A DNA stretch of 64,000 bases. Origin: Syntrophorhabdaceae bacterium (GTDB lineage Bacteria; Desulfobacterota; Syntrophorhabdia; Syntrophorhabdales; Syntrophorhabdaceae). The stretch lies in the NCBI GenBank assembly GCA_036504895.1, contig DASXUJ010000062.1:62001-126000 (forward strand). Direction: 5' to 3'. The notes below the pieces were generated by a model. That model made no database searches, was not told where the DNA came from, and saw nothing but the letters and a program-made list of their open reading frames with translations. A program made the position numbers and the translations under genes. Positions 13,476 to 57,652 of this stretch are shown piece after piece. Numbering within the stretch: the first letter of the stretch is position 1; each line of letters begins with the position of its first letter.

Positions 13476-13742
13476 TTACGCCTTCTCCTGAATTTCGGCC
13501 ATTTTCCTTGAATATTCAGCCTCATCCATCACAAGGGAGACGACTTTCCTTTTGTCCTTCTCTCCCTTGACGATCGTCACGTCGGTTTTACGGACACAAA
13601 AGACATCCGCAAGGTATTCGGTGAGCTCCTGGTTCGCTTTTCCATCTCGGGGCACAGAGAGCAGCTTCACCTTCAGGGCCCCGTCTTCCCGGGTGATCTC
13701 CTTCCTCTTTGCCCTCGTGATGACCTTAACCTCTATGTTCAT
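13476..13742 (-). CDS. DUF167 (YggU) family protein
   Basis: The 88-residue protein has the family pattern VKVITRAKRKEI followed by LKVKLLSVPRDGKANQELTEYLA, where the basic KANQE stretch is diagnostic. Its biochemical role is unknown. It follows yggT after 26 nt, a common pairing. It is the last gene of the operon that starts with the UPF0280 gene. Confidence 0.88.
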   Translation of the reverse strand: MNIEVKVITRAKRKEITREDGALKVKLLSVPRDGKANQELTEYLADVFCVRKTDVTIVKGEKDKRKVVSLVMDEAEYSRKMAEIQEKA

Positions 13743-13768
13743 CTCTTTCGTCCGTGATCTTGAGGCCC

Positions 13769-14068
13769 TTATCTGAGCCTCATCCCAAGGTCGAGCAGGC
13801 TGTTTACCGCGAATTTCTGCAAAAATATAATCACGATTATTACCAGAAACGGGGCGATATCGAACATGCCGATTCTGGTCGGGAGCATTCTCGAGATCCT
13901 GTATGTCACGGGATCAACCATTCCATAAATGATCCTGACAAGAGGATTATAGGGATTGGGCCTGATCCACGAGAGGATGGTCCGAATTATCACGACCCAC
14001 AGGTAGAGCTCGAGCAACAAATTGACTACATATGCCACGCCATAAATAAAATTTCCCAAAACAAACAT
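13769..14068 (-). CDS. YggT family membrane protein
   Basis: The 99-residue product has two hydrophobic segments (about residues 5-27 and 68-90) flanking the conserved RTILSWIRPNPYNPLVRIIY and VDPVTYRISRMLP motifs of YggT. Members act in cell-shape or osmotic functions in some bacteria. I start at the ATG at 14068, where homology begins; a reading to 14134 would overlap mtaB and add 22 poor residues. Confidence 0.9.
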   Translation of the reverse strand: MFVLGNFIYGVAYVVNLLLELYLWVVIIRTILSWIRPNPYNPLVRIIYGMVDPVTYRISRMLPTRIGMFDIAPFLVIIVIIFLQKFAVNSLLDLGMRLR

Positions 14069-14114
14069 CGGGCCTCCGTATTCACAGGAATGAGGGGGAA
14101 GGCGAGGGAGCCTT

Positions 14115-15386
14115 TCAGGCTTCCAAAACCTCACCTATAAGATTGTCTCCCATTATCTCCTTTATTTTAACCCGGGTAAGATTATTTTCAATATCTTTTT
14201 TCCGGGGGAGGTAAAGAGGGAGGTAATTATCCGTATACCCCCTTACATAATCTCCTTTGTAAACCTTCCCTTCCGGAATGACCCAGGCTTCGGATCCGAG
14301 GAAGCGCCGGAAAAATCTCTTCCTCATCTCCCGATCGAGTGCCCTCAATGCCGAGACTCTCATTTTTTTCGTCCTTGCCGATACTGCGCCCCCCATGGAT
14401 GCCGCCTTGGTCCCCGTCCTGGGGGAAAAGGGAAAGACATGGAGATAGTAGATATCAAGGGAGGAGATAAAACGAAGAGTCTCCTCGAACTCCTCATCCG
14501 TCTCCGTGGGAAAGCCCACGATCACATCGAACCCGATACCGATCTCACCCATGCCTTTCTGCAGCCGCCCGACCATGGCACGTATATATTCGATCCCGTA
14601 GGGCCGTCCCATCAGCCCAAGTATGCGGTCGCACCCGCTCTGGAGCGGGATATGGAGGCTTTTGGCGATCTTTCGCGAGGCCGCCATTATCCCGATCATT
14701 TCAACATCCAGATAAAGGGGGTCTATCGAGCTCAGCCGTATCCTCGGCGGAGTCGGACTTGTCTCGATCTGTCTGAGAAGACCCTTGAGGTCCATATTCT
14801 GCCCTGGATCGAAATATGATGAGATCTCGATCCCTGTGAGGACTACTTCCTTCACTCCCCAGCCCGCAAGGCGGGCGAGGGTCTCCATTATCTCGGGCAG
14901 AGGTCTGCTGCGCGGCTTTCCCCTTCCGAAGGGAACAATACAGTACGCGCAGAAACGGTCGCACCCGTCTTGTATCTTGAAGAAAAAACGGGTCTTGTCC
15001 CGCGGGACCCCATGGATCTCTCCCGCTTCCATGAGACGGTCTCTTCCCGGGGATACGAATGTCCCTGTTTTCCGGAGGTATTCGGCAATCCTGAACTTCT
15101 CATCCTGTCCGAGTACCGCATCGGCGCCGAAGGTCTTACCGGGATATACCTGCCCCTGGCAACCCGTGAGGATGACATGGGCAGATCCGTTCAATCTTTC
15201 CATGCTTCCGATAAACCTCCGCACGTCCCGCTCGGCCCCCTCGGTCAGCGCACAGGCATTAACCACAATGACATCGGCGTCTTCGGGTGAAGCCGGCGAA
15301 AGCCCCGCCTCTTCAAGCCTGTTGGCGATCACATGGGTATCCCACTGGTTTGCCTTGCACCCCGTAGTATGGACGTAGTATTTCAT
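14115..15386 (-). CDS. mtaB: tRNA t(6)A37 methylthiotransferase, MtaB-like
   Basis: This radical SAM methylthiotransferase probably converts t6A37 to ms2t6A37 in tRNA. The 423 residues show three domains: UPF0004 (TGCKANQWDTH, with further Cys in VNACALT and LTGCQGQ for one cluster), radical SAM with CDRFCAYC (about residue 145), and a C-terminal TRAM-like region. I start at the ATG at 15386, giving the typical MKYYVHTTGC; a longer reading would overlap the cysteine desulfurase gene. It is 8 nt downstream of that gene, which could supply sulfur. Confidence 0.9.
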   Translation of the reverse strand: MKYYVHTTGCKANQWDTHVIANRLEEAGLSPASPEDADVIVVNACALTEGAERDVRRFIGSMERLNGSAHVILTGCQGQVYPGKTFGADAVLGQDEKFRIAEYLRKTGTFVSPGRDRLMEAGEIHGVPRDKTRFFFKIQDGCDRFCAYCIVPFGRGKPRSRPLPEIMETLARLAGWGVKEVVLTGIEISSYFDPGQNMDLKGLLRQIETSPTPPRIRLSSIDPLYLDVEMIGIMAASRKIAKSLHIPLQSGCDRILGLMGRPYGIEYIRAMVGRLQKGMGEIGIGFDVIVGFPTETDEEFEETLRFISSLDIYYLHVFPFSPRTGTKAASMGGAVSARTKKMRVSALRALDREMRKRFFRRFLGSEAWVIPEGKVYKGDYVRGYTDNYLPLYLPRKKDIENNLTRVKIKEIMGDNLIGEVLEA

Positions 15387-15394
15387 CCGCCCCT

Positions 15395-16555
15395 TCACTT
15401 CGGCCCGAAGGGCGACATTTCCCTCAGCCTTTTTACTGCCCCGGGAATCACCGAAAGGGCGTAATCCACCTCGGAAGCCGTATTTTCGGGTCCAAGACTG
15501 AACCGTACCGAACTCCGGCAAAGGGCCTCAGGGATTCCCATCGCAGCAAGTACGTGAGATGGGTGGGCCGCTCCGGAAGCACAGGCCGCTCCTGAGGAGA
15601 GGGCAATCCCTTTAAGATCGAGGGCAATAACCAGGGACTCCCCTTCGGCACCCTCAAAACTCAGATTGATCGTATTCGGGAGCCTCCGTTCGGGGTCTCC
15701 ATTGAGTGTCACCTTCTCCACATCGGACATTATTCCCTCAAGCAATTTTTTTCTGAGGGAGTCGATGTTATGGTTTCTCTCCTCGAAATCTCTCCGGGCG
15801 ATTTCGCACGCCTTTCCGAAGCCGGCAATGGAGGGCATATTCTCCGTCCCCGCCCTCCGTCCGCCCTCCTGACCTCCGCCATGGATAAGGTTCTCGATCT
15901 CGAGTCCTTTTCTGATATAAAGAGCGCCCACACCTTTCGGGGCAGACATTTTATGACCGGAGAAGCTCGCGAGGTCCACGCGAAGGGATTCCACATCAAT
16001 CGGCACCTTGCCCAGGGCCTGAACCATGTCCGAATGGAGGAGAACCCCCCTTTCCCTCGCGATCCCGCCTATTTCCGCAAGAGAGGAGACAGCGCCGGTC
16101 TCGTTATTGGCGAGCATGACGCTGATGAGCACTGTTTCCGGCCTGATCGCCGATTTTACCTCATCCGGCTCCACCCGTCCGTATCGGTCAACGGGGAGGT
16201 AGGTGACAAGGAAGCCGGATTCCTCCAGATACCTCATGCTGTTCAGAACGGCAGGGTGCTCCACTACAGTCGTGATCAGGTGATTCCCCCGGTCCCTTTG
16301 CGATCGTGCAGCCCCTTTTATCGCATGGTTATCGCTCTCGGAGCCGCAACCGGTGAACACGATCTCTTCAGGGGCCGCATGGATTATCTGCGCGACCAGC
16401 CCCCTCGCCTTTTCATAATGGCTTCTGACCTTTCGTCCTGCCCAATGAAGGCTGGAAGGGTTCCCGAAGAACTCATCGAGAAAAGGATGGATGGCCCGGG
16501 CCACCTCGGGATGAACAGGCGTAGTGGCGTTATAATCGAAGTAGACCTGCTTCAT
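15395..16555 (-). CDS. Cysteine desulfurase (NifS/IscS family)
   Basis: This PLP enzyme takes sulfur from cysteine. The 386 residues begin MKQVYFDYNATTPVHPE. The PLP lysine is in SFSGHKMSAPKGVG and the active Cys in SSGAACASGAAHPSHVL. I start at the ATG at 16555; a TTG at 16567 would overlap the ferredoxin gene. It is one of two desulfurases in the window, here with NIL-ferredoxin upstream and mtaB downstream. Roles in homocysteine, Fe-S or tRNA thiolation are all possible. Confidence 0.94.
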   Translation of the reverse strand: MKQVYFDYNATTPVHPEVARAIHPFLDEFFGNPSSLHWAGRKVRSHYEKARGLVAQIIHAAPEEIVFTGCGSESDNHAIKGAARSQRDRGNHLITTVVEHPAVLNSMRYLEESGFLVTYLPVDRYGRVEPDEVKSAIRPETVLISVMLANNETGAVSSLAEIGGIARERGVLLHSDMVQALGKVPIDVESLRVDLASFSGHKMSAPKGVGALYIRKGLEIENLIHGGGQEGGRRAGTENMPSIAGFGKACEIARRDFEERNHNIDSLRKKLLEGIMSDVEKVTLNGDPERRLPNTINLSFEGAEGESLVIALDLKGIALSSGAACASGAAHPSHVLAAMGIPEALCRSSVRFSLGPENTASEVDYALSVIPGAVKRLREMSPFGPK

Positions 16556-16559
16556 ATGG

Positions 16560-16967
16560 TCAGTCAAAAAAGACGGTCATCGCCTTCACCGGGCACACCT
16601 TGACGCAAAGCTCGCACGCCACGCACCGCTCGTAATCGAAAAGAACTTTCATGTCGGTCCTGTCTATGTGCAATGCCTCGGGTGCGCAGACCCCGGTGCA
16701 TACGCCGCAGTGTACGCATCTTAATTCATCCCTCTGGATATCCTGCTCTATGGGCTCGGTATCGATATTGAGGCTCTTTATATATTCGATCCCTTTCTCG
16801 AAATTCTCGTCGGTGCCCTCGATCTCCAGCACCATCATGGATTCGTGTCTGGGAGATATATTTGCCCGGAGAATATTGAAGACAAGGTCAAAATCCCGCG
16901 CCAGACGGTAGACTATGGGCTTATCTATCGTATTTCTCTTGAACCTAAGAATAATTCGCTTCTTCAT
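16560..16967 (-). CDS. NIL-domain ferredoxin (homocysteine-synthesis type)
   Basis: The 135-residue protein has an N-terminal NIL domain (residues 1-75, the ligand domain also found in MetN) and two 4Fe-4S motifs: CVHCGVCTGVC and CVACELCVKVC, each followed by a proline or Ala-Pro position. Proteins of this layout work with COG1900 (DUF39) and COG2122 proteins in sulfide-dependent homocysteine formation in methanogens. It is directly downstream of such a COG2122 (UPF0280) gene here. No DUF39 gene is in this window. Confidence 0.85.
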   Translation of the reverse strand: MKKRIILRFKRNTIDKPIVYRLARDFDLVFNILRANISPRHESMMVLEIEGTDENFEKGIEYIKSLNIDTEPIEQDIQRDELRCVHCGVCTGVCAPEALHIDRTDMKVLFDYERCVACELCVKVCPVKAMTVFFD

Positions 16968-17018
16968 GCCGGACCTCGCTTAATTTTTTCACTCTTCCTC
17001 ACCGATTCCTTTCAGCTT

Positions 17019-17741
17019 TCATATCCTCACAAGCTCCATATCTCCCCACATGCCGATATGGTCGCCGAGCACCACGAGAACGGCCAGCACATCCGGGAAA
17101 TTTTTCCCTTCATCGATGGCACGGGAGAGATCCTCTTTCTTCTTCACCATGTTGCCCACTTTCGTGGCAAGCCCGTCGGCAAAAAGCGCCGATCTTGCCA
17201 CTACGCATACCGCGTCCGCCTTGCCGAAGCTCAGAGAGGGACCGACTGTGGCGGAGGAGGTGCATATGCCGTAAGGCCTCTCGTCCGGCCGCACTTTGAT
17301 CCCTATCCGCCCGCTGAAAGGCGAATCGCCCGCGTAGATGAGCACCACCCTCTCCTGCCTGGTGGAAAGAGAGATATCGCCCCCGTTTTCTATCACATAT
17401 TCATCGGAAAATAGCGAAATATCATTGCCCACGTGCTCCGCCAGGGCGCCCGCTACCGTGGCCATGGGTCCCACGCCGAGGGCGGCGGCGGCAACGATCA
17501 TGCGGCGCGCCATAAGGGGAGCCAGGGCGTCGTCTTCAACAGGCGCGAGACTCTCCCTGAAAACCGGCCTTACCCGTATGTATTCTTCGAGCTGATTTCT
17601 ATAAAAGAGCACCCGGTCCTCAATAAACCCGCTCAAATCACCCCTGGTACAGCAAAGCAGGTCCGTCTCCTTTATCTTCACCTCATAACAGTCAAGATCA
17701 GGAGGTTTGCCTGCGTGCCGATAAAATCGTTCTTCATACAT
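17019..17741 (-). CDS. UPF0280 (COG2122) family protein
   Basis: The 240-residue protein matches the UPF0280 family, distantly related to ApbE: GVGPMATVAGALAE, YVIENGGDISL and ATVGPSLSFGKADAVCVVA are visible. Family members have been tied genetically to homocysteine synthesis in Methanosarcina, together with NIL-ferredoxin and DUF39 proteins. It is the first gene of an operon whose next genes are a NIL-ferredoxin and a cysteine desulfurase. No membrane segment is seen. The enzymatic reaction is inferred, not shown. Confidence 0.85.
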   Translation of the reverse strand: MYEERFYRHAGKPPDLDCYEVKIKETDLLCCTRGDLSGFIEDRVLFYRNQLEEYIRVRPVFRESLAPVEDDALAPLMARRMIVAAAALGVGPMATVAGALAEHVGNDISLFSDEYVIENGGDISLSTRQERVVLIYAGDSPFSGRIGIKVRPDERPYGICTSSATVGPSLSFGKADAVCVVARSALFADGLATKVGNMVKKKEDLSRAIDEGKNFPDVLAVLVVLGDHIGMWGDMELVRI

Positions 17742-17836
17742 AGTTGTTTAAATGCGGACCCTGAGCTTCGGGGGCGCTCCCGCCACGGATGCGTCTCGCC
17801 CGGTTTTTTCCGAATTCTTTTAAAGCCGCGGACTTA

Positions 17837-17865
17837 AATATAGCAAGGACGGCCCCGGCTGTCAA
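17837..17865 (-). promoter_or_regulatory. Sigma-70 type promoter for the UPF0280-NIL-nifS-mtaB operon
   Basis: Minus-strand TTGACA (17860-17865) and TATATT (17837-17842) are separated by 17 nt. It is divergent from the promoter at 17885-17913, with only about 20 nt between the two -35 boxes. Confidence 0.82.
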
Positions 17866-41088: not shown

Positions 41089-41667
41089 CTATTCCGAAAG
41101 CACGAAAATCCCGGTCTGGGCAAAGAGATTGGGAAAAAGGCTTACCCTCCCCTTCTTCCCCAGATAAATTGCCCTTTCGATTCTGATGGCCCTCTTCCTG
41201 CAAAAATCGGTGAAGTCGGTGAGGCTCAGGAAGTGCAGATTGGGTGTATCGTACCATTCATAGGGAAGGGACGGGGTGACGGGCACTCTGCCATCGAAAA
41301 AGATCTGCATTCTCGATTTAATATACGCAAAGTTGGGGATCCCCACAATCACTTTCCTCCCCACCCGAAGCGCCTCTTCGAGCACGGTGGCCGGTTTCCT
41401 GACCTGCTGGATGGATTGATTGAGAATCACATAATCGAATGATTTATCCGAATATTCGGGGAGCCCGGTATCGATATCATCCTGAAATACGCTGAGACCG
41501 CGGGCCACGCAGGCAAATATCGCCTTATCGTCAATTTCTATTCCCTGGGCTTTTATCTTTTTTCCTTTTACAAGCAGGAAGAGGAGGTCGCCGTTTCCAC
41601 ACCCGAGATCGAGGACTGAAGATCCTTCCTCCACAATCTGAAGGATCGCCTCATGGTCGGGGCTCAT
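41089..41667 (-). CDS. metW: MetW, methyltransferase-like methionine biosynthesis protein
   Basis: The 192-residue protein has the SAM-binding signature [15 protein letters not shown] and the MetW motifs [17 protein letters not shown] and [12 protein letters not shown]. MetW accompanies MetX in many proteobacteria and is thought to assist or activate homoserine acetylation/succinylation. It overlaps the metX stop by 4 nt. It is the last gene of the cysK-metW operon. Confidence 0.93.
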
Positions 41668-42785
41668 ACCTGCTGCCCTGCCCTGGCGAGAAAATGGGTG
41701 ATGAGATGGCTCTGCTCCGATACCTCGACGAGGAACGCGTCATGGCCGTAGGTGGAATTGAGCTCGCAATAGATCGCCTCTACCCCGGCCTTCTTGCATG
41801 CCCGTGCGATCTCCTGGGACTGATAGGAAGGATAAAGCCAGTCGGATTTGAAGGCGATGATGAGAAATCGGGCGTTTATGCCTTTCAGCAAGTTGTGGAG
41901 GCCCTGGCCGTTCGAAAGGTCGAAATAATCTATGGCTTTCGTGACATAAAGATAGGAATTCGGGTCAAAGCGTTTGATGAAGTTATCTCCCCTGTAATGA
42001 AGGTACCCTTCCACCTCGAAATCTGCCCCGAACTTGAGGGGCTGCTTTTCTTCCCTGAACCTCCTCCCGAATTTTTCGTTCATCGACTCATCACTCATGT
42101 AGGTGATGTGCCCCACCATTCTGGCCACACTCAAGCCCTTTACCGGAAGCCGGCGGCCGTAATATTCCCCTCCGTTCCAATGGGGGTCCGCCATGATCGC
42201 CTGCCTGCCCACTTCGTTGAATGCAATCTGCTGAGGCGAATGGACCGCGGTAGTGGCGATGGGTATGGCGGATCGTATTTTATCGGGGTGGGCGACGGCC
42301 CATTGGAGGACCTGCATGCCTCCCATGGAGCCGCCCGCCACGGACAGGAGCCTCTTTATCCCGAGGTGCTCCGTCAGACGGACCTGGGCGTTTACCATAT
42401 CCCCAATGGTGACAATGGGGAATTCAAGCCCATAGGGCCTTCCTGTCTTGGGATTCGGCGATGACGGGCCTGTCGAGCCCCGGCAACCTCCGATCACGTT
42501 GGAACAGACCACAAAATACCGGTTTGTGTCAAAGGCCTTCCCGGGACCGATCATATTGTCCCACCAGCCGGGGTTTTTGTCGCCTTTGTGAAATCCCGCG
42601 GCGTGGGCATCGCCGGTCAGCGCGTGGGTAATGAGGACCGCATTCGATCTGTCCTCATTGAGCGCCCCATAGGTCTCATACTCGAGGGTGACGGGACCGA
42701 GCACCTCTCCACTCTCGAGCTTAAGCTCGGCAAAGGTAAAGTGCTCCGGCTCCACAAGCCCTATGCTCCCGTCACGGGTCGTCAC
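41664..42785 (-). CDS. metX: Homoserine O-acetyltransferase (or O-succinyltransferase) MetX
   Basis: MetX activates homoserine with an acyl-CoA. The 373-residue alpha/beta hydrolase shows the nucleophile elbow [15 protein letters not shown] and the catalytic His in [20 protein letters not shown] and [14 protein letters not shown] are family motifs. The acyl donor, acetyl- or succinyl-CoA, cannot be set with confidence by eye. It sits 3 nt after metY and overlaps metW. Confidence 0.94.
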
Positions 42786-42788
42786 GAA

Positions 42789-44087
<1,299 letters not shown>

Positions 44088-46194: not shown

Positions 46195-47340
46195 TTATAA
46201 AAGGGCCTCGGGAACGTCGCCCTTCATGAGTCCTTTGATGACAGGGGTCTCACCGCACAGGGGGCACTGGGCATTTATTCCCGTCTCCATAAGGCTGACG
46301 GAGAGCCTCAGGGCATTCATGACAAAAAATTTACCTATCATGGGTGTGCCGATCCCGAGAATCAGCTTTAAAACCTCGGTAGCCTGAACCAGGCCAACCT
46401 GTCCCGGGACAACGCCCAGGACGCCTGCCTCACTTCAGGTAGGTGTGAGGTGGCGCGGAGGTGGGGTGGGAAAAAGGCACCTCAGGCAGGGGCCTCCTTT
46501 CTTCGGCCAGAATACGCCTGCCTGGCCGTCGAAGCCTACCGCCCCGCCGAATACATAGGGTTTTCCAGCAAAATAACATGCGTCATTGAGGAGGAACTTC
46601 GTATCGAGGTTGTCGGTAGCATCCATGACGATGTCGAAGGCTTCAATAATTTCAGAGGCATTCTCCCGGGTCAGGCGGCCCCTGTAGGGGATCACCTTTA
46701 CATCCGGGTTAATCTCTTCTATGAAATCCACGGCCGAGTCGACCTTGAGCCTCCCTATGTCGCCCGTTCCATGGATTACCTGGCGGTTGAGGTTCGAGAG
46801 GTCTACCCGGTCGAAATCGACGATGCCCAATGTGCCTACGCCCGCTGCGGCAAGGTAGGGCAGAGCGGAAGATGCAAGACCCCCCGCGCCCACTACAAGG
46901 ACTTTGGCATTCAAAAGTTTAAGCTGCCCCTCTTCACCGATCTCTTTGAGGAGCATATTCCTGCTATAGCGGTTCAACTGGTGGACCGTAAGCCTGCCAT
47001 CCGATATGATCTCACCCCCCCTGCTCAACCACGCATCGTAACCTCCCGCCAGAGAGCGGGCATTGGCAAAACCCATTTCTCTCAGTTTTGCGGCGACGGA
47101 GATCGATCGGTCGCCTACCGCGCAATAGACTATGATCGGCGTTGAGGGGTCCGGAGAAAGTTTATTCCATTCCCCTTCGATGAGACCGGGGGCAATAAAG
47201 CGAGCCCCCCTGATGTAGCCGAGGTAAATTTCCCTGCTGCCCCGTATATCGATCGGTATTGTCCTGCTATCGCGGGCAAGCAACTCCCTTGCATCCTCGA
47301 CCGTGATTTCCTGTTCCGGGGGAACTACCGGTTTTTCCAT
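46195..47340 (-). CDS. Rhodanese-ThiF/MoeB fusion with in-frame TGA read as selenocysteine
   Basis: The 381-residue product would be a sulfur-carrier adenylyltransferase. Residues 10-115 form a rhodanese domain with loop CAVGDRS (Cys73). Residues 120-381 form the ThiF/MoeB domain: VVGAGGLASSALPYL, DFDRVDLSNLNRQ, adenylation Asp243 in DATDN, and zinc pairs CLRC (285/288) and CPLC (near 361). Codon 302 is TGA (46435-46437), between HLTPT and SEAGVLGVVPG, exactly where MoeB/ThiF have Cys (E. coli MoeB Cys187, ThiF Cys184). The second zinc pair lies after the TGA. A bSECIS-like hairpin follows. I start at the ATG at 47340; ATGs at 47349 and 47412 are alternatives. A cysteine-to-stop pseudogene is the other reading, less likely given intact downstream coding. 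Confidence 0.85.
46401..46422 (-). promoter_or_regulatory. Candidate bacterial SECIS element
   Basis: Thirteen nt after the TGA, an 8-bp stem (GTCCTGGG with CCCGGGAC, one T-G pair) closes a 6-nt loop CGTTGT. The loop's second base is G, at +22 from the TGA, which fits the usual bSECIS rule (G among the first two loop bases, 16-37 nt downstream). Confidence 0.75.
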
Positions 47341-47532
47341 GTCTCTCATCCTATTATGCCGGAATTGACGCTGTCGGTAGATACCAGGTCTTTTCCGTAT
47401 GAATTTGCTCATCGTATGTGACTTAAAGCGATGTAAACGGCCGAACCACCAAAAGAAATCGTTCCTTCGCGCCGCAATTTATGAGGAAGATCTTCCCGAA
47501 CCTCCCGTCCATTTGCGCGCACACCGCCTATG

Positions 47533-51421: not shown

Positions 51422-52573
51422 ATGAAGTACCGAACCAGGATTTTACATACAGGAAGAGACAGGGACCCTCACACGGGGGCATCGAGCATCCCCATTTATC
51501 AGTCTTCTACATTCGCACAGGACGATCCGGAAAAATTCGGCAACTATGTATACGCCCGGGGCTCGAATCCGACCCGGGAAGCGCTCGAACATACGATCGC
51601 GCTCCTGGAGAGCGGGTCCAGGGGATATGCCTTCTCGTCCGGCATGGCCGCCATATCCTCGACCTTTCTTCTTCTGAAGCCGGGGGATCACGTGGTGGTG
51701 GCGGAGGACGTCTATGGCGGGACTTATAAAATACTCACCACCCTTTTCACGCGCTGGGGACTCGACCACACCTTCGTCGATATGACATTTCCCGACCGTA
51801 TCGAGAAGGCACTGACATCGAATTCCAAGGCGATCTTTGCGGAAACCCCCTCCAATCCTACTCTTAAGATCACGAACCTCCCTGCGGTCGTGGAGATAGC
51901 CCGCAGGAGGGGGCTTCTTACCATCATAGACAATACCTTCATGAGTCCCTATTTTCAAAGACCGATCGAATTGGGGTTCGATATCGTGCTCCACAGTGCA
52001 ACGAAATTCGTGGGAGGACACAGCGATGTGATAGCAGGTCTCGCGGTCACCGGTGATAAAAAATGGGGCACCCGACTGGGAGAGATTCAGACTTATTTCG
52101 GATCGGTTCTCGGGCCTCAGGATTCATGGCTTCTCCTCCGGGGTATCAAAACCCTTTCGGCAAGAATGGAGGCACAGCAAAAAAGTGCGGAGATGATGGC
52201 AAACTGGCTCTCCGGACATCCCGCCGTGAAGCACGTCTATTATCCCACCCTGCCCTCCCATCCCGGCAGAGAGATCCACTTGCGGCAGGCTACGGGCGGG
52301 GGGGCCGTGGTATCTTTCGAATTAGCGGACGGCAAGGCTGCGAAGCACGTGCTGAGGCGGGTAAAGCTGCCCCTGATGGCGGTAAGCCTCGGCGGTGTGG
52401 AAAGTATACTTTCCTACCCCGCAACCATGTCCCATTCTTCCATGTCACCCGAAGAGAGGGGCAGAAGGGGCATCTCGGACGGGTTGGTCCGGTTCTCGGT
52501 AGGTCTCGAAGATCCCCTCGATCTTTGTGACGATCTGGAGCAGGCTATGAAAGGCCTGAGCCCTGCAAAATAA
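51422..52573 (+). CDS. Cystathionine gamma-synthase / gamma-lyase family PLP enzyme
   Basis: The 383-residue protein has the family signature with PLP lysine in [19 protein letters not shown] and YARGSNPTREALEHTIA near the N terminus. The length is typical of MetB, MetC and cystathionine lyases, shorter than MetY. It could run transsulfuration in either direction; sequence by eye does not decide. AAGGAG 5 nt before the ATG. It is a single gene. Confidence 0.92.
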   Translation: MKYRTRILHTGRDRDPHTGASSIPIYQSSTFAQDDPEKFGNYVYARGSNPTREALEHTIALLESGSRGYAFSSGMAAISSTFLLLKPGDHVVVAEDVYGGTYKILTTLFTRWGLDHTFVDMTFPDRIEKALTSNSKAIFAETPSNPTLKITNLPAVVEIARRRGLLTIIDNTFMSPYFQRPIELGFDIVLHSATKFVGGHSDVIAGLAVTGDKKWGTRLGEIQTYFGSVLGPQDSWLLLRGIKTLSARMEAQQKSAEMMANWLSGHPAVKHVYYPTLPSHPGREIHLRQATGGGAVVSFELADGKAAKHVLRRVKLPLMAVSLGGVESILSYPATMSHSSMSPEERGRRGISDGLVRFSVGLEDPLDLCDDLEQAMKGLSPAK

Positions 52574-55356: not shown

Positions 55357-55640
55357 TCTCCTTTATTCTATCATATGTGCCGGGGCTGTGATATCATTTA
55401 TCTTCCCTTACCTCTTTACATCAAAGGTCCCTAAACCCTACATTATATAAGCATATCCTGAGAAGTTTCCCATCGCAGGCCATAAGGGCGCATCGTTAAA
55501 GAGGGATTGCGGGGGAAGCAAACCTATGGTAAAGATATGATCACGGGTTATTACGAACGGCTCAGAAGCCGCGAACAGACTTGACGGCAAGACGATTTGC
55601 TCTTTAAAGTAAAAGATCTTCTTCGAAAGGAGTGTGCACG

Positions 55641-56477
55641 ATGTGGGAATATACTGATAAAGTTCGGGAGTATTTTCTGAACCCGAAGAATGTGGGTGAG
55701 ATAGAGAATCCTGACGGCGTGGCGGAAGTAGGCTCCATCGCCTGCGGAGATGCCTTGAAGCTCACTTTCAAAGTAGACGAGAATAAAAAAATCGTGGACG
55801 CCAAGTTCAAGACCTTCGGCTGCGCGAGCGCAATCGCTTCAGCGTCGGCCCTTACCGAGATGGTAAAGGGTATGACCATAGAAGAGGCGGGGAAGATCAC
55901 CAACCAGGATATCGCCGATTTTCTGGGCGGGCTTCCGGCGGAGAAGATGCATTGTTCCGTCCTGGGCCAGGAAGCGCTGGAAAAGGCAATCGAGAGCTAC
56001 CGCGGGACCGCCTCCCCGAAAAAAGAAGGGCAGATAGTGTGCGAATGCTTCGGCGTAACCGATAAAGAAATCGAAAAAGCCATCAAAGAGAACCATCTCA
56101 CCACCGTTGAGGAGATCACTAATTATACTAAAGCCGGCGGCGGGTGCAGAAACTGTCATGAGAAGATACAGGCCATCATCGATCAGATCTATGCCCAGCC
56201 GAAACCTGACGCCCCTCCTGCGGAAAAACCCCGGCTCACCAACATACAGAAGATCCGCCTCATTGAAGAGACTATCGACAAGGAGATCCGGCCGTCGCTG
56301 AAACATGACGGCGGCGATATCGAGCTTGTGGATATCGTGGGAAACCGGGTGCTCGTGGCGACACGGGGCGCATGCGCCGTCTGTCAGGCGTCGCAGCTCA
56401 CGCTCAAGGGGTTCGTGGAGATCAAGTTGCGCGAACTGGTCTCGCCCGAACTGGTCGTTGAGGAGGTGTCGCAGTGA
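55641..56477 (+). CDS. nifU: NifU-type Fe-S scaffold protein
   Basis: The protein has three parts: an IscU-like N terminus (EVGSIACGDALKLT, TFGCASAIASAS, MHCSVLG with the three scaffold Cys), a BFD-like [2Fe-2S] domain (CECFGVTDKEI, GGGCRNCHEKI) and a NifU C-terminal domain (IRPSLKHDGGDIEL, GACAVCQASQLTL). The ATG at 55641 is 8 nt from AAGGAG; a GTG at 55632 abuts that site. It overlaps the nifS-like gene. No nitrogenase gene is nearby, so it is likely the housekeeping assembly system. Confidence 0.94.
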   Translation: MWEYTDKVREYFLNPKNVGEIENPDGVAEVGSIACGDALKLTFKVDENKKIVDAKFKTFGCASAIASASALTEMVKGMTIEEAGKITNQDIADFLGGLPAEKMHCSVLGQEALEKAIESYRGTASPKKEGQIVCECFGVTDKEIEKAIKENHLTTVEEITNYTKAGGGCRNCHEKIQAIIDQIYAQPKPDAPPAEKPRLTNIQKIRLIEETIDKEIRPSLKHDGGDIELVDIVGNRVLVATRGACAVCQASQLTLKGFVEIKLRELVSPELVVEEVSQ

Positions 56478-57652
56478 AAACAGTCTATCTCGATAACAAT
56501 GCAACTACCCGGGTTGCTCCCGAGGTCCTTTCGGAGATGACCCCCTATTTCAGCGAGCTCTACGGCAACCCTTCGTCCATGCATAGCTTTGGCGGCCAGG
56601 TGGCAAAGAAGCTGAGCGATGCCCGATTGAAAGTGGCGGGCATCATCGGCGCGGAGCCCGATGAGATCGTTTTCACGAGCTGCGGCACCGAGAGCGACAA
56701 TACGGCGATTCTCTCCGCCCTTGCAGTCAATCCGGACAAACGCCACGTGGTGACGAGCCGGGTGGAGCATCCTGCTGTGAAAGTGCTGTGCGAGCATCTG
56801 AGAGAGAAGGGATATAATGTCACCGAGCTCGATGTGGACACGGACGGCAATCTTGACATGGACCAATATGAGAGGAGCCTCACTGCGGACACGGCCGTGG
56901 TCAGCATCATGTGGGCAAATAACGAGACGGGTGTAATATTCCCGGTTGAGAAGGCGGCACAGGCGGCACGGGAGAAAGGCATCATCTTTCATACCGATGC
57001 AGTCCAGGCAGTCGGTAAAATGCCTATAAACATGAAGGAAAACGCCATACACCTGCTCTCCTTTTCGGGCCATAAGCTCCATGCCCCTAAAGGTATAGGA
57101 GTACTCTATATCCGCAGGGGAACCCGTTTCTCACCTTTTATGATCGGGGGTCACCAGGAAAAGGGGAGGAGGGGAGGCACCGAGAATACCCCGAGCATCA
57201 TAGGTCTCGGGGCCGCATGCGAGCTTGCGGCGCAAAAGATGGAAGACGAGAACACGAGGGTCCGGAGCCTTCGCGACAGACTCGAAAAGGAGCTTATCTC
57301 CCGCATCCCCAATCTCAAGGTGAACGGAGGCAAGGCGCCGCGCCTTCCCAACACCACCAACATCAGCTTTGAATTTATCGAGGGTGAGAGCATCCTTCTC
57401 CTCATGGACCAGTTCGGCATATGTGCATCCTCCGGCTCCGCCTGCACCTCGGGGTCTCTCCAGCCTTCCCATGTGCTGCGGGCAATGGGCGTGCCCTATA
57501 CCATGGCCCACGGATCGGTCAGGTTCAGCCTGAGCACCTATAACAGCGAAGAAGATATCATGCTCGTAATCGAAAAACTCCCGGCCATTGTCGAGCGGCT
57601 GAGGGGCATGTCGCCCTATTGGGCCGAAAGCAATGTGTGCGCGCCTGCATAA
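56474..57652 (+). CDS. nifS: Cysteine desulfurase NifS
   Basis: The 392-residue PLP enzyme has the lysine in SFSGHKLHAPKGIGVLY and active Cys in CASSGSACTSGSLQPSHVL. Its GTG start overlaps the nifU stop and has a GGAGG site. It supplies sulfur for NifU clusters, and perhaps for thiazole synthesis, as the next genes are thiM and thiE. Confidence 0.95.
   Translation: MKTVYLDNNATTRVAPEVLSEMTPYFSELYGNPSSMHSFGGQVAKKLSDARLKVAGIIGAEPDEIVFTSCGTESDNTAILSALAVNPDKRHVVTSRVEHPAVKVLCEHLREKGYNVTELDVDTDGNLDMDQYERSLTADTAVVSIMWANNETGVIFPVEKAAQAAREKGIIFHTDAVQAVGKMPINMKENAIHLLSFSGHKLHAPKGIGVLYIRRGTRFSPFMIGGHQEKGRRGGTENTPSIIGLGAACELAAQKMEDENTRVRSLRDRLEKELISRIPNLKVNGGKAPRLPNTTNISFEFIEGESILLLMDQFGICASSGSACTSGSLQPSHVLRAMGVPYTMAHGSVRFSLSTYNSEEDIMLVIEKLPAIVERLRGMSPYWAESNVCAPA

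Follow-up and report, generated by a model that had tools for sequence, protein, structure and literature searches.

What sulfur chemistry is served by a row of genes in which a UPF0280 (COG2122) gene and a NIL-domain ferredoxin gene stand next to genes for a NifS-type cysteine desulfurase and an MtaB-like tRNA methylthiotransferase? The row lies at 13476-17741 of a 64,000-nucleotide stretch from a Syntrophorhabdaceae bacterium (contig DASXUJ010000062.1, positions 62,001 to 126,000), and this whole stretch is termed the window. The original prediction for this locus had tied the first two genes to the homocysteine route of methanogens that depends on DUF39. It offered two outcomes, coexistence of two homocysteine routes or a different sulfur task. 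Very probably, the row supplies two components, UPF0280 and the NIL-ferredoxin, of the three-part aspartate-semialdehyde sulfurtransferase (L-ASST) route to homocysteine, with DUF39 encoded elsewhere in the genome, MetX-MetY as a second route, and the NifS and MtaB-like proteins not required. This reading is built on gene content, conserved residues, the co-occurrence of UPF0280 with DUF39 and the dispensability of NifS, all of which were observed, and on chemistry inferred from work on Desulfovibrio and Methanosarcina.

The DUF39 partner

A search of the genome for DUF39 (COG1900) had been proposed, the lack of the gene being taken as a point against the prediction. The gene is present on another contig of the genome under study, G000 (G000:C10:29243-30322). 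It matches DUF39/HcyBio (PF01837) over its full length with an E-value of 5.9e-148 and is the only match in the genome. HcyBio is its sole domain at E ≤ 0.01. There is no C-terminal CBS domain as found in MA1821 of Methanosarcina acetivorans, and that domain is not counted as defining for the bacterial form of L-ASST. The protein scores 96 bits against the MMP16/ComF model, far under the cut-off of 364, and is not of the MMP16 type. Two near-invariant cysteines, one kept in 17 and the other in all of 18 aligned sequences, probably correspond to Cys54 and Cys131 of MA1821, a correspondence based on conservation and not on alignment to MA1821 itself. The three-protein homocysteine set (DUF39, NIL-ferredoxin and UPF0280) is thus complete in the genome, with one full-length copy of each.

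The same parts are known from two other organisms. In Desulfovibrio vulgaris, mutants of all three genes are rescued by methionine, and the COG2122-DUF39 fitness correlation is r = 0.98 (PMC5764234), which agrees with a joint role of the three proteins. In M. acetivorans, Cys54 is essential, the ferredoxin subunit gives electrons, and MA1715, the UPF0280 protein, is described as performing sulfur trafficking for L-ASST (PMC12068725); a persulfide on a DUF39 cysteine is indicated (told in PMC5764234). The route extends beyond methanogens: it is shown in Desulfovibrio (PMC5764234), and the DUF39 family is also matched in the control genome of Synechococcus elongatus. The DUF39 route is known to occur mostly in anaerobes.

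D. vulgaris Miyazaki F carries the same three families (DvMF_1464, DvMF_0262 and DvMF_0044), and the locus tags place the genes apart there too. Unlike that strain, the present genome also has MetX and MetY, and its UPF0280 and NIL-ferredoxin genes are in a row with NifS, MtaB-like, YggT and YggU genes. M. acetivorans combines L-ASST (MA1821-MA1822) and MA1715 with an orthogonal second methionine pathway in the same genome; the arrangement described here differs in that DUF39 is on another contig than the NIL-ferredoxin gene.

By analogy with these systems, UPF0280 would assist the delivery of sulfide to a DUF39 cysteine, probably Cys72, where a persulfide would form; no conserved cysteine of UPF0280 itself would hold the sulfur. 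DUF39 would then hand it to aspartate semialdehyde, forming homocysteine. Electrons would be supplied by the NIL-ferredoxin, whose NIL domain would sense methionine. MetX-MetY would provide a homoserine-based second route in the same cell, and the neighbouring NifS and MtaB-like proteins would share sulfur chemistry with the pair and not be required by it.

Co-occurrence of the three families

Joint occurrence was assessed in a phylum sample of 148 genomes that are at least 98% complete, G000 included, with the UPF0280 profile applied at E ≤ 1e-15. The UPF0280 and DUF39 counts were taken as referring to the same 148 genomes, their number and handles agreeing. The profile matches 102 genomes, from which G067 and G157 were dropped (partial, paralogue-type matches below 75 bits). 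DUF39 is found in each of the 100 genomes with full-length UPF0280, and 100 of the 102 DUF39 carriers have UPF0280, the exceptions being G157 and G179; neither gene is found in 46 genomes (Fisher p = 2e-36). The presence of DUF39 in every full-length carrier argues against a separate main task of UPF0280. A different sulfur task, the second outcome foreseen, is therefore not supported as the main role.

The association is also seen at the level of loci. When the best 80 of 560 named loci are compared, 15 have the DUF39, NIL-ferredoxin and UPF0280 genes as neighbours, and such three-gene loci carry titles that include Clostridiales, Dehalococcoidia, Atribacteria, Chloroflexi and Dictyoglomaceae, among others. 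In 60 near genomes (G000 and 59 relatives, with fragments at contig ends counted), UPF0280 is present in 52, the NIL-ferredoxin in 52, DUF39 in 50 and all three in 47. At E ≤ 0.001 UPF0280 is found in 53 of the 60, with G003 having a paralogue-type match only. The NIL-ferredoxin stands alone in G045.

The gene row

The six genes are read head to tail on the minus strand, and are listed in order of transcription.

17019..17741, minus strand: UPF0280 / COG2122 protein (NCBIfam PRK04334.1-3, 2.8e-79; PDB 2o34, 1e-37), assigned as putative sulfur-trafficking partner of DUF39
16560..16967, minus strand: NIL-domain ferredoxin, 135 aa (Pfam NIL, 3.2e-17, and Fer4 domains), assigned as putative electron-transfer subunit of the sulfurtransferase
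15395..16555, minus strand: NifS/IscS-type cysteine desulfurase (TIGR03402, 2.2e-156); open reading frame opens at 16567, likely ATG at 16555
14115..15386, minus strand: MtaB-like tRNA methylthiotransferase (TIGR01579, 343 bits); open reading frame opens at 15521, likely ATG at 15386
13769..14068, minus strand: YggT-family membrane protein (PF02325, 2e-16); open reading frame opens at 14134, likely ATG at 14068
13476..13742, minus strand: YggU / DUF167 protein (PF02594, 1.8e-20)

The open reading frames claimed for 13476-17865 are where they had been placed, and Pfam and NCBIfam confirm their families. Long apparent overlaps between open reading frames vanish when the likely ATG starts of NifS, MtaB-like and YggT, taken from the translations, are used; the intergenic gaps from UPF0280 to YggU then measure 51, 4, 8, 46 and 26 bp. 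That the six genes are co-transcribed, as the claim of a single operon implies, is something we infer. A YceD gene comes next downstream of YggU, with a PlsX gene at a greater distance (both by Pfam). An Rfam search at gathering scores gave no RNA element in the window or in L002, the stretch with DUF39, and a tRNA gene search of the window found none.

The UPF0280 and NIL-ferredoxin genes are on the same strand and at most 2.5 kb apart in 33 of 39 loci of other genomes that have a UPF0280 match (at most 0.4 kb apart in 32 of these), so that their pairing is not due to chance. The NIL-ferredoxin, a NIL domain fused to a two-cluster ferredoxin, displays two CxxCxxCxxxC motifs in its translation and is the single match in the genome at E ≤ 1e-15. 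The methylthiotransferase has Radical_SAM and UPF0004 domains (Pfam) and is over the cut-off of TIGR00089. MtaB, the name first given to it, is its best equivalog name; the score of 343 bits is nevertheless below the TIGR01579 equivalog cut-off of 357, and the protein is therefore labelled MtaB-like. The UPF0280 protein itself gave no Pfam match at E ≤ 0.001, and reaches 266 bits against PRK04334.1-3, its best NCBIfam model, just below the cut-off of 271.

A distant UPF0280 paralogue is encoded at L071:4554-5369 (G000:C74). It comprises 271 aa and has 30% identity over query residues 59-204. Its flanking genes encode a 508-aa ferredoxin-type protein, which presumably resembles 6-hydroxynicotinate reductase, and a 190-aa protein; close by is a gene that we likewise take to be amidohydrolase-like. 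Many of the 60 near genomes have similarly weak UPF0280 matches.

A second route to homocysteine

The window also holds genes of O-acetylhomoserine sulfhydrylation, 24 kb from the UPF0280 gene row.

41089..41667, minus strand: MetW (TIGR02081, 245 bits, over cut-off)
41664..42785, minus strand: MetX, homoserine O-acyltransferase (PRK00175, 519 bits, over cut-off)
42789..44087, minus strand: MetY, O-acetylhomoserine sulfhydrylase (TIGR01326, 654 bits, over cut-off)
51422-52573: MetB/MetC-like gene, best model cystathionine beta-lyase, below its cut-off

The metX, metY and MetB-like genes that had been reported are real by their NCBIfam scores, and MetW is to be added. MetW, MetX and MetY are contiguous, each is over at least one NCBIfam cut-off, and nothing notable differs from the known MetX-MetY pathway, which is patchy in this family. 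The acyl type of MetX (acetyl or succinyl) is not settled by the models, with 467 of 500 bits for TIGR01392 and 464 of 560 for MetX_succinyl, neither cut-off being reached. With DUF39 in the genome, its partners in the gene row and MetW-MetX-MetY in the window, gene content supports the suggested coexistence of two homocysteine routes.

A rather unlikely alternative is that only one of the two routes works, with MetY scavenging sulfur compounds or making cysteine, or with the DUF39 set as a leftover. Consistent with it, MetY is rarer where DUF39 is present. In the 148 genomes, a MetY match at E ≤ 1e-120 is found in 26 of 102 genomes with DUF39 and in 30 of 46 without (p = 7e-6); counted separately at the curated cut-off, the numbers are 19 of 102 and 29 of 46 (p = 3e-7). 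Most of the 60 near genomes also are without a match at the thresholds used (16 with MetX at E ≤ 1e-40, 14 with MetY at E ≤ 1e-100). The genes of both routes are, however, full length with conserved residues, MetW-MetX-MetY form one contiguous set, and DUF39, MetX and MetY are found together in 10 of the 60 genomes, G000 included. For M. acetivorans, the absence of a methionine phenotype in cells that have lost L-ASST is attributed to another, orthogonal pathway (PMC12068725). PF01837 and TIGR01326 both match in the control genomes of M. acetivorans and S. elongatus. The DUF39 and MetY routes tend to replace each other, yet often coexist, and their coexistence is not rare in the phylum sample. 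Within a single genus, G000 has both routes, G001 has DUF39 only, and G002 has MetX/MetY only, as assembled and at the thresholds used.

The adjacent desulfurase

The proposed linkage with a sulfur donor enzyme is borne out as to position. The gene that adjoins the NIL-ferredoxin gene is of NifS type (Aminotran_5, 3.2e-79, Pfam; 520 bits against TIGR03402, below the NifS equivalog cut-off of 531), and the catalytic-loop cysteine is kept in alignment with a solved cysteine desulfurase, PDB 9wep. It is not borne out as a needed step. There are 42 genomes of the family or order with the NIL-ferredoxin, G000 included, of which 41 are assessable (G043 was not judged, its contig ending). NifS is beside the NIL-ferredoxin in 34 of the 41, including G029, where it is cut at a contig end, and G038, where one stop lies inside the match. 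In the other seven it is decayed (G001) or missing (G012, G013, G015, G021, G023 and G025), and NifS as a needed sulfur donor was rejected on this ground.

In G001 the slot at L033:1577-2752, between intact NIL-ferredoxin and MtaB-like genes, holds a NifS remnant with many in-frame stops and several frames. DUF39 is present in that genome, no MetX was detected at E ≤ 1e-40 and no MetY at E ≤ 1e-100; another NifS gene is present. Judging by G001, an adjacent desulfurase seems not to be needed for the DUF39 route.

Two further sulfur loci are found in the window. At 55632-57652 there are NifU and NifS genes, both over their NCBIfam cut-offs, which may serve Fe-S assembly in general and so render the NifS of the gene row dispensable. 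At 46435-47412, near MetXYW and CysK, a protein with Rhodanese and ThiF/MoeB-like parts, below the cut-off of its best model, represents a possible further sulfur-carrier route.

tRNA-sulfur genes as neighbours

DUF39 in G000:C10 is followed by a PP-loop gene (ThiI/MnmA-like) and an MBL hydrolase gene (L002:9479-12428). The Pfam names of these two (ThiI and NFACT-R_2; Lactamase_B) were read on L073 of G019 and L077 of G001, and the G000 copies are 55% (PP-loop) and 73% (MBL) identical to those of the named relatives. In this family 33 genomes match DUF39, and the loci of 22 of them were examined; a ThiI-like gene adjoins DUF39 in all 22, two of which are cut by contig ends. Outside the family, 5 of 25 DUF39 loci have the ThiI-like gene inside the stretch retrieved, at 0.9 to 2.8 kb. 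The MBL gene directly follows DUF39 in three genomes of a sister family.

UPF0280 is found beside MtaB-like genes with no NIL-ferredoxin gene between. In three of the 80 named loci (L092, L097 and L098) the two are 30-93 bp apart (tblastn, about 37% identity), and in G050 they are within 23 bp. L092, L097, L098 and L056, where the two are directly adjacent by tblastn only, are all outside the family. Both halves of the homocysteine system thus have tRNA-sulfur neighbours, an observation that is suggestive only. A literature search found no paper on DUF39-ThiI-like or UPF0280-MtaB neighbourhoods.

Observations that weigh against the assignment

Several observations count against the reading of UPF0280 and the NIL-ferredoxin as L-ASST parts. 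Among the 60 near genomes, both genes occur without DUF39 in G002, G029, G031 and G033. UPF0280 occurs without DUF39 or the NIL-ferredoxin in G052 (85% complete), and DUF39 without full UPF0280 or the NIL-ferredoxin in G003, G039 and G048 (90, 84 and 79% complete). The two DUF39 cysteines are spaced by 87 residues here and by 77 in M. acetivorans (Cys54/Cys131). In alignment A1, consisting of 15 UPF0280 sequences, 31 residues are invariant and 18 nearly so, and cysteine is among none of them. It is thus probable that no conserved cysteine of UPF0280 holds the sulfur, and a role as a cysteine-persulfide carrier is weakened. Extra sulfide, cysteine or homocysteine rescues the MA1715 mutant of M. 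acetivorans, as told in PMC5764234.

The same-genus genome G002 (93% complete) has MetX/MetY and the whole UPF0280-NIL-ferredoxin-NifS-MtaB set, with no DUF39 detected. The gene order ABC-F, sensor kinase, rubredoxin-like leads into the block of MBL, ThiI-like and DUF39 genes in G000 and G001 (the kinase of G001 being in pieces). In G002 this order continues into other genes on one unbroken contig and the block is missing. A ThiI-like match in G002 was judged by its context to be the other paralogue, since it adjoins a BioB-like gene, like its counterpart in G000:C104. UPF0280 and NIL-ferredoxin are complete in G002, the 31 invariant UPF0280 residues being kept by construction, since alignment A1 includes the G002 sequence. 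Mean identity of UPF0280 to 36 outgroup loci is 58.9% for G002, compared with 56.6% for G000 and 58.0% for G001; that of the NIL-ferredoxin to 30 outgroup loci is 73.3%, compared with 72.4% and 72.0%. The pN/pS values of the two G002 genes are 0.11-0.25, with silent sites saturated. The two genes are under unrelaxed constraint in G002, with no faster change.

G002 may have lost DUF39 recently, may hold it in unassembled DNA, or may use the operon in a second role. In G029 the contig stops inside the neighbouring gene, and G031 and G033 gave no match to the ThiI-like gene that adjoins DUF39 elsewhere, the MBL gene not having been searched there; assembly gaps may be behind the absence of DUF39 in these three genomes. 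Only G002 has a continuous neighbourhood, and DUF39 loss in the four genomes was not accepted as proof of another role.

It is improbable, though it would explain why G002 keeps UPF0280 without a detected DUF39, that in this family the whole homocysteine sulfurtransferase is tied to tRNA sulfur modification, UPF0280 and the NIL-ferredoxin through NifS and an MtaB-like enzyme and DUF39 through a ThiI/MnmA-like PP-loop protein and an MBL hydrolase, with UPF0280 as a general sulfide helper for homocysteine formation and tRNA thiolation. Still more doubtful is that the row is mainly a sulfur relay for tRNA modification, in which NifS and UPF0280 would feed a methylthio step of NIL-ferredoxin and MtaB-like protein, with homocysteine as a second use or none: the UPF0280-MtaB-like pairs of L092, L097, L098 and G050, the ThiI/MnmA-like neighbour of DUF39 in the family and the operon kept in G002 are in its favour, but none of the 100 full-length UPF0280 carriers is without DUF39, and methionine rescues the UPF0280 mutant of D. 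vulgaris (PMC5764234).

Biological meaning

The assignment of UPF0280 and the NIL-ferredoxin to homocysteine formation is mostly an ordinary finding: the pathway is already known and is seen here in a further host with a second route, the gene arrangement being a local variant. The unusual part is the company that the homocysteine genes keep with tRNA-sulfur genes. UPF0280 is part of a documented pathway and still is without a Pfam model match. If it also served tRNA modification, this would provide a testable role for a protein that has no invariant cysteine. The three related genomes show a genus in which two homocysteine routes come and go between species.

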